From the NCBI GenBank assembly GCA_024405415.1, contig JAKSOV010000002.1:1-64000 (forward strand): a stretch of DNA of 64,000 nt, in the 5' to 3' direction. The notes under the pieces were generated by a model. It ran no database searches, had not been told where the DNA came from, and worked only from the letters and a program-made list of their open reading frames with translations. A program made the translations under genes and the position numbers. Shown piece by piece: positions 9,096 through 32,596 of the stretch; the stretch's first letter is position 1; each line of letters starts with the position of its first letter. The stretch comes from Akkermansia sp. Its GTDB lineage: Bacteria > Verrucomicrobiota > Verrucomicrobiia > Verrucomicrobiales > Akkermansiaceae.

Positions 9096-9119
9096 AACGA
9101 AGGATGGGCATTTCAGCGG

Positions 9120-9176
9120 CTCCCCTGCCGCGCTCAAGCGGACGGCGCCTACGCCGCCCTTCTGCTGCACCGATAA
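9120..9176 (+). pseudogene. duplicated fragment of the rsmB 3' end
   Basis: In frame this stretch reads LP(C)RAQADGAYAALLLHR followed by a stop. The true rsmB end reads LP(H)RAQADGAYAALLRRK. About 17 codons match, including an identical 17-bp core, GACGGCGCCTACGCCGC. It has no start codon and is a remnant lying after the ankyrin gene. Confidence 0.8.
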
Positions 9177-9178
9177 CA

Positions 9179-9209
9179 AAAACGGTCTGACCATCGGTCA
9201 GACCGTTTT
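9179..9209. terminator. bidirectional terminator, core hairpin of element copy B
   Basis: AAAACGGTCTGACC, loop ATC, then GGTCAGACCGTTTT, with a T-run in both directions. It ends the ankyrin gene on the plus strand and argG on the minus strand. It occupies the same place as the TTCTGAC hairpins in the other element copies. Confidence 0.85.
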
Positions 9210-9260
9210 CCTTAGGAAGCGGCGTCAGCCGCCTAACTCCCTGATTTGTACATTGTACTC

Positions 9261-18482: not shown

Positions 18483-18698
18483 CGACAAAGGGGGATTTGT
18501 CGGGATTTACTAGGTACTATGTACTAGGTACTATTTATCAAGTTCGGCGGCTGACGCCGCGAGATAACGAAACTGTTCTGACGCTTGCGTCAGAACAGTT
18601 TTCCTGTCCTTGCGGCGGAGCCGCACTCTATTCAAAAATAGTACATAGTACCTAGTACATAGTACCTAGTACATAGTAAATCTACAAATCCTCATTTA
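18483..18698. repeat. complete heptamer-array element (copy C)
   Basis: The left end is the stem-loop CGACAAA-GGGGG-ATTTGTCG (18483-18502) and an array of three heptamers (TACTAGG, TACTATG, TACTAGG). The core has GCGGC-TGAC-GCCGC (18547-18560), a 15-bp-arm hairpin (18570-18601) and GCGGC-GGA-GCCGC (18612-18624). The right array has five heptamers in inverted orientation (GTACATA, GTACCTA alternating, 18635-18682), then ACAAATCCTCATTT. The element ends at the stop codon of the FAH-family gene. Confidence 0.85.
18570..18603. terminator. terminator-like core hairpin of element copy C
   Basis: AAACTGTTCTGACGC pairs perfectly with GCGTCAGAACAGTTT around a TT loop and is followed by TTCC. It reads as a terminator on both strands, but no intact gene on the plus side needs one. 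Confidence 0.7.
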
Positions 18699-21543: not shown

Positions 21544-21577
21544 AACCCCGGCAAGTTGCAAAACTTGCCGGGGTTTT
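21544..21577 (+). terminator. terminator of the tRNA-Ser gene
   Basis: AACCCCGGCAAGTT, loop GCAA, AACTTGCCGGGGTT, then TTG. It is a 14-bp perfect stem starting 4 nt after the tRNA. Confidence 0.9.
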
Positions 21578-21601: not shown

Positions 21602-21832
21602 AAATGGGGATTTGTAAGTACAATGTACAAAGTACGAAGTACAAATCATTGAATAGAGTGCGGCTTCCGTCTTCGCCTACGGCTACGCCGAGACAAGCCG
21701 CCGCAAGGATTGGTAACTCGTTCTGACGCAAGCGTCAGAACGAGTTTTTATCCCGCGGCGTCAGCCGCCTAATTTTTTGATTTGTACATTGTACATTGTA
21801 CTTTGTACATCTCGACAAATCCCCATTTGTCG
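21602..21832. repeat. complete heptamer-array element (copy D)
   Basis: The left array has four 7-bp units (AAGTACA, ATGTACA, AAGTACG, AAGTACA). The core holds a large GCGGCTT...AAGCCGC hairpin (21660-21701), a 15-bp-arm hairpin (21715-21746) with TTT after it, and GCGGC-GTCA-GCCGC (21755-21768). The right array is in inverted orientation (TTGTACA, TTGTACA, TTGTACT, TTGTACA), then the stem-loop CGACAAATCCCCATTTGTCG (21813-21832). It has the plan of copy C with different sequence in almost every part. Confidence 0.85.
21715..21749. terminator. terminator-like core hairpin of element copy D
   Basis: AACTCGTTCTGACGC and GCGTCAGAACGAGTT form a perfect 15-bp stem with an AA loop and a T-run. Compared with copy C the stem bases differ on both sides, so pairing is kept. 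Confidence 0.7.
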
Positions 21833-21843
21833 CCCCCTCGCCA

Positions 21844-21885
21844 CAACAAAATCCCCTGCTCGCGGAGGAGCAGGGGATTTTGTTG
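21844..21885 (-). terminator. terminator of the DAHP synthase gene
   Basis: CAACAAAATCCCCTGCTC pairs with GAGCAGGGGATTTTGTTG around a 6-nt loop. It lies 20 bp after the stop codon on the minus strand. Confidence 0.85.
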
Positions 21886-26682: not shown

Positions 26683-26721
26683 GAGTGCATTATAGCGGAG
26701 CTGTCAAGTGAGAGGAGGAGG

Positions 26722-26882
26722 ATAAATGGGAAATTGTCGAGGTAATTGAGAAAGGAAAAGCCCTGGCTCTCAATAAAAGCTACCGCAAACGCTTTGTGGT
26801 GCGTTTTGCCCTGCGGCGCAAGCCACACGAATTTCAATGCTCAATTCTCAATCCCCCATTTTTCTCCCCGACAAATCCTCCA
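26722..26882. repeat. divergent heptamer-array element (copy E)
   Basis: It lies between the metal operon and a lipoprotein gene. The outer ends resemble the other copies (GGGAAATTGTCG at the left, CGACAAATCCTCC at the right). The right array is a different heptamer, TCAATGC, TCAATTC, TCAATCC (26834-26854); the left shows AATTGAGAA, its inverted partner. The core has short hairpins but not the TTCTGAC stem. Confidence 0.55.
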
Positions 26883-26899
26883 TTGCTGCGCAATAATTC

Positions 26900-31905: not shown

Positions 31906-32010
31906 TGGCGCGGCGCAGCTGCGCGGAATTTAAGGCGCTATTCTGACGGAACATCAGAATAGCAACGTGGGGATTACGCGGCAACGCCGCGCAGGGGCGA
32001 GAGCGTTTTT
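31906..32010. repeat. core-only relative of the heptamer-array elements (copy F)
   Basis: After tatA come GCGCAGCTGCGC (31913-31924), a hairpin GCTATTCTGA/TCAGAATAGC with loop CGGAACA (31935-31961), and GCGGC-AAC-GCCGC (31976-31988). The order of a GC-rich hairpin, a TTCTGA hairpin and a GC-rich hairpin equals the core of copies C and D. No heptamer array is present on either side. Confidence 0.55.
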
Positions 32011-32508: not shown

Positions 32509-32543
32509 CGCATTTCCTTGTGTGGTGGTAGGAAATAAATTCC

Positions 32544-32585
32544 GTACCCCACATTGTACCCCATTTTGTACCCCCCACTCGTACG
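32544..32585. repeat. 12-bp GTACCCC direct repeats downstream of tRNA-Leu
   Basis: GTACCCCACATT, GTACCCCATTTT and GTACCCCCCACT follow each other, then CGTACG. They sit about 12 bp beyond the tRNA-Leu terminator. Repeats of this kind occur at attachment sites of integrases that use tRNA 3' ends, but no integrase is present. Confidence 0.55.
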
Positions 32586-32596
32586 AACGGTAATGC

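Follow-up and report, generated by a model that had tools for sequence, protein, structure and literature searches.

REPINs are formed by two inverted REPs that fold into a hairpin and are moved by RAYT (PMC3116915), and in TIRtrons (TIRYT) long terminal inverted repeats that are partly self-complementary enclose the genes of Y1 transposases (PMC3733652). In Xanthomonas, heptameric simple repeats occur as inverted pairs of GGGAATC arrays, and heptameric repeats are over-represented in bacteria (PMC4692102). Template switching at quasi-palindromes is a mutational mechanism rather than an element; it homogenises the arms of such sequences and inverts hairpin loops (PMC8604942, PMC8794818). In the literature searched, which included few subscription papers, dispersed elements with facing, co-changing heptamer arrays around a fixed three-hairpin core are not described, no TIR repeats of the TIRtron/TIRYT kind are reported in Akkermansia and nothing relevant on repeats of this genus was found. 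Here, such an element is analyzed at positions 21602-21832 of the first 64,000 nucleotides of contig JAKSOV010000002.1 (the window) from an Akkermansia sp. genome (GCA_024405415.1; 1.98 Mb, 122 contigs, assembly 95% complete). The original prediction correctly recognized two copies with the same plan in the window and missed that they belong to a dispersed, non-coding, high-copy and very probably mobile family.

The copy at 21602-21832 shows, on the plus strand, the predicted order of left end, array, GC hairpin, long hairpin, GC hairpin, inverted array and end stem-loop. The left terminal inverted repeat AAATGGGGATTTGT (21602-21615) is complementary at 14 of 14 positions to 21815-21828 and is followed by the left heptamer array GTACAAT, GTACAAA, GTACGAA, GTACAAA (21618-21645), which pairs with 21778-21808. 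Next, the left GC hairpin with its nested hairpin insert (TTCCGTCTTCGCCTACGGCTACGCCGAGACAA) spans 21660-21704; this insert, a hairpin of 32-39 nt, is absent from most copies and sits in the other GC hairpin in TA-type copies. The central long hairpin AACTCGTTCTGACGC-AA-GCGTCAGAACGAGTT (21715-21746) displays compensatory changes in 7 of its 14 pairs. It is followed by the right GC hairpin GCGGC-GTCA-GCCGC (21755-21768) with a T-run behind it, the inverted heptamer array GTACATT, GTACATT, GTACTTT, GTAC (21784-21808) and the right end hairpin CGACAAAT-CCCC-ATTTGTCG (21813-21832), which represents the family end motif. The element had been described as complete, which applies to the right end; at the left end the canonical CGACAAAT half, including the outer CGAC of the end hairpin, is missing and the sequence reads GGGGAAATGGGGATTTGT. 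The 231-nt stretch has a folding energy of -68 kcal/mol for DNA (z = -13.7) and of -113 kcal/mol for RNA (z = -14.7), values that no shuffle equals, and as single-stranded DNA it is predicted to form a single long imperfect hairpin. The array pattern GTACN3GTACN3GTAC (GTACNNNGTACNNNGTAC) is found nine times in the 64-kb window and in none of 100 shuffles. The element does not match any Rfam family above the gathering score, the window matches being tRNAs only, and no CRISPR-like spacer structure was seen in it, which gives no cause to read it as a CRISPR, an integron attC site or a riboswitch.

A sister copy with GTACTAK heptamers is located on the minus strand at 18483-18698 (cmsearch 213 bits, E = 4.5e-46). 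The heptamers of the two copies are different, as proposed, with base 5 (T to A) and the variable base 7 as the main sites of difference. In the cores of the two copies, an identity of 82% extends over ~135 bp, so that the statement that the plan is conserved more than the sequence is too strong for this pair; it gains its force once other copies and species are added. Further relatives in the window are a partial or decayed copy on the plus strand that shares the hairpins and has a short GTAC array (9097-9256, cmsearch E = 1.4e-7), a decayed copy on the minus strand (26702-26885, cmsearch E = 1.7e-4) and the right part of another copy on the plus strand, truncated by the contig end (1-52). 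Additionally, isolated hairpins at 31906-31996 (TTTAAGGCGCTATTCTGACGGAACATCAGAATAG and neighbours) are related to long elements in loci L074 and L096, and three imperfect repeats at 32540-32590 (GTACCCCACATT, GTACCCCATTTT and GTACCCCCC) adjoin a tRNA gene on the minus strand.

Throughout the host genome, the array pattern has 376 matches (0 for the reversed control) and the end motif ACAAANGNGNATTTGT is present in 162 exact copies (0 for the control), corresponding to at least 80 two-ended copies. The original prediction passes the covariance-model search that was proposed along with it: the model R1, built from 20 copies, scores both window copies at E ~1e-45, yields 215 matches (E up to 0.01, both strands counted) in 610 kb of the host genome and, over 39 genomes, detects the plan in 19 of the 24 other Akkermansia species and in none of the 14 genomes from other genera of the order. 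A search of a plasmid collection gave no match. The GTAC-type copies fall into three subfamilies, GTACTAK, GTACAAW and GTACGAW. Many of the listed contigs of this genome start or stop within a copy, and the family therefore also fragments the assembly. Solo end hairpins or end-to-end remnants that lack arrays are present at L068:2081, L095:8732 and L094:3369, as expected from deletion between direct repeats of CGACAAAT.

In an alignment of 20 copies, 99.2% of the cells are paired, compared to 22-44% when slid, and double compensatory changes affect 12 of 49 pairs; values as high as these are reached in 0 of 500 shuffles, and no slide approaches them. Base 5 of each heptamer covaries between the arms, and so does half of the central hairpin (7 of its 14 pairs). 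Base 7 shows no covariation (17 of 56 paired, ~15 expected), which indicates that arm copying is at best partial. The suggested concerted change of the arrays is evident in that the left and right heptamer classes agree in 30 of 30 host-genome copies with a class on both sides; one chimera outside this set (L095:4608-4753) carries AA on the left and TA on the right. In other species, the left-right array match is 0.83 within copies versus 0.68 between copies (permutation p = 1e-4), a difference that is somewhat inflated because model R1 favours copies with pairing arms. The central loop reads CTTG (23) or CAAG (9), with both orientations in both subfamilies, and all 91 end loops are G-rich inward without a single flip, a pattern that fits constrained ends and a free centre. 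Such loop orientations and arm matching resemble the loop inversion and arm homogenization caused by template switching and suggest that this mechanism may act on the element. Pair counts alone do not distinguish selection from template switching, and slippage plus hairpin template switching explains matched arms equally well as structural selection does. The proposed selection on structure is not established, given that slippage plus template switching would produce covariation of this kind as well and that base 7 is free of it.

The period of the arrays is exactly seven: 674 kb of the host genome contain 154 arrays at lag 7 versus 0-4 at lags 5, 6, 8, 10, 11 and 13, and triple tetramers amount to 976 at period 7 versus at most 31 at periods 4, 5, 8, 10 and 11. 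As a period-7 tandem array, the element belongs to the heptameric tandem repeats (STRR or heptameric SSR). Similar to the Xanthomonas repeats, its arrays are intergenic, sometimes facing and often within 50 bp of stop codons, whereas it differs from them by its many heptamers, the fixed hairpin core between the arrays and its dispersed near-identical copies. The same plan, i.e. inverted period-7 arrays around a three-hairpin core, is also found in this genome with heptamers other than the GTAC type, among them AATTTAC, GTTGGAA and GATTTTT. In other species, period-7 arrays are present in 38 of 40 matches examined, versus 0-1 at other periods, and the heptamers include AATTTAC, GAATTAC, GTACCAT, GAAATAC and GAAGTAC. 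Across the genus Akkermansia, the folding plan is kept and the heptamer has been replaced many times. It is conceivable, if doubtful, that these quasi-palindromes form a genus-wide selfish class whose folding plan, and not whose sequence, is the target of selection or copying, the heptamers of both arms being replaced together; perhaps the period-7 arrays are needed for movement or recognition of the single-strand hairpin. Among the matches listed (L127-L239), intergenic arrays of four GTACWWW units occur in many phyla, mostly Bacteroidota, and often directly 3' of stop codons; GTAC arrays are also present in viral contigs. In a Candidatus Colimorpha MAG contig (L157), the array and the following stretch closely match a horse Akkermansia MAG (L178), which reflects either MAG contamination or recent transfer.

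We consider the element to be a non-autonomous, non-coding mobile quasi-palindrome of the REPIN or RAYT-TIR-repeat kind, in effect a miniature inverted-repeat element, with a probability of about 0.6. Its single-stranded form would be one imperfect hairpin of ~100 bp, in which the ends and the heptamer arrays are paired and two GC hairpins surround the central hairpin. The element has spread to at least 80 intergenic sites of the host genome, mostly right behind stop codons and without target-site duplication. The end hairpin is most likely recognized by a RAYT/TIRYT-type Y1/HUH tyrosine transposase, or by a relative that was lost or is unassembled in this genome, and this enzyme would move the single-stranded hairpin, as proposed for REPINs. 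The arrays may lengthen and shorten by slippage, and template switching between the arms, together with the need for end pairing, could keep the left and right arrays complementary, allowing the heptamer to be replaced while the plan stays. Like REPINs, the element is non-autonomous, extragenic and of high copy number with no target duplication seen, and two inverted end palindromes plus a spacer form one hairpin in its many extragenic copies. In contrast to REPINs, its ends read CGACAAAT-GRGR-ATTTGTCG and lack GTAG, the outside bases beyond CG are variable, the element is longer and its arms contain tandem heptamers. A RAYT gene flanked by the repeat was not found in the host genome, the assembly of which breaks at these repeats.

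Movement between sites is supported by the comparison of 21 full copies: in 31 pairs the identity is at least 97%, with a maximum of 99.6%, over 190-235 bp, and none of the flanks resembles another. Alternatively, the structures could have arisen independently at many sites through slippage of heptamers plus template switching, without transposition. This purely mutational origin would agree with the pervasive period-7 arrays of many sequences in the host genome, with the simple intergenic arrays of many phyla and with the inversion of the central loop, but it is improbable since an identity of 99.6% that includes ends and core at unrelated sites needs copying from site to site. The inverted terminal repeats and the high copy number would likewise suit a MITE derived from an insertion sequence of the DDE type whose terminal inverted repeats measure 20 bp; this is very unlikely given that the end repeats are themselves palindromic and that no constant target duplication is visible in 13 copies with both ends. 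An interpretation of the end hairpin as a target site that was duplicated during insertion was also dismissed, as the two end loops are mirror images and not direct copies. Neither an empty site at base resolution nor an excision product was seen, and no joined flank matched a contiguous place, as a paralogous empty site would, in the host-genome stretches examined.

The location of the copies bears on a further explanation, according to which the structure is selected for a function as an RNA or DNA device at 3' ends, e.g. a transcription terminator, an mRNA stabilizer or a supercoiling site. With gene calls based on our own codon-usage heuristic, the elements lie at a median distance of 31 bp 3' of the stop codon, 22 of 57 occupy convergent gaps (about 21-25% expected) and few are positioned between divergent genes. 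Together with the terminator-like central hairpin and the strong covariation, this placement speaks for such a device. Even so, such locations are also tolerated by selfish repeats, REPs among them, and the presence of nearly identical copies at scattered sites indicates spread. Moreover, the copy at 21602-21832, which sits between tRNA-Ser and the DAHP synthase gene, is enclosed by two intact terminator-like hairpins, one after tRNA-Ser (21544-21575) and one after the DAHP synthase gene (21844-21885). At the 3' end of this gene (aroG), no element was seen in other species with a readable intergenic gap, and several related species keep simple terminators there. A functional device is therefore an unlikely, though not far-fetched, explanation.

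For the mobile quasi-palindrome, the end hairpin provides an inferred link of moderate strength to a Y1 transposase. This hairpin is nearly confined to the host genome, with few copies in the genomes G005 and G011. In G005, G011 and G010 it caps multi-hairpin elements. The inner modules of these elements are abundant in G011, and at G010:C124 they flank a Y1 gene. The end hairpin is carried by short Y1-linked elements in these three genomes, but no intact Y1 gene with this hairpin on either side was seen. Two long elements of the host genome share the end hairpin and carry other hairpins: L096:9778-10355 on contig C59 (~580 nt, folding at -375 kcal/mol) and L074:7365-7688 on contig C39 (~325 nt). 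Both are devoid of GTAC arrays and contain nested hairpins (TCTGACGGAACGTCAGA) and a core resembling Y1 flanks; the core of L096 matches a Y1-gene flank of G003 with 81% identity over 57 nt (E = 7.5e-7). Family and protein searches detected no Y1_Tnp in the host genome, the assembly of which is 95% complete and breaks at these repeats. A linkage to Y1 genes through the arrays was rejected, since no GTAC arrays of the element's type lie near the Y1 genes examined in G001-G022. The Y1 genes of Akkermansia relatives (L326-L345) are found within symmetric stacks of several hairpins, and the inverted arms around six examined genes measure 117-164 nt with 79-86% identity. The likeness to TIRYT consists of a relationship of repeat families to the long inverted sequences beside Y1 genes and of an end hairpin that caps Y1-linked elements in related Akkermansia, while the host genome without a Y1 gene and the heptamer arrays in the arms of the element represent differences.

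This family, present in about 20 species with dozens of copies in each genome, offers a natural system in which arm complementarity is kept and arm sequence changes. The long-standing question of whether paired arms result from selection or from template-switch copying can be tested by phylogeny with these elements. The family also explains the breaks of the host assembly at its sites and suggests that the medically important gut genus Akkermansia harbours a Y1/HUH-linked repeat system.
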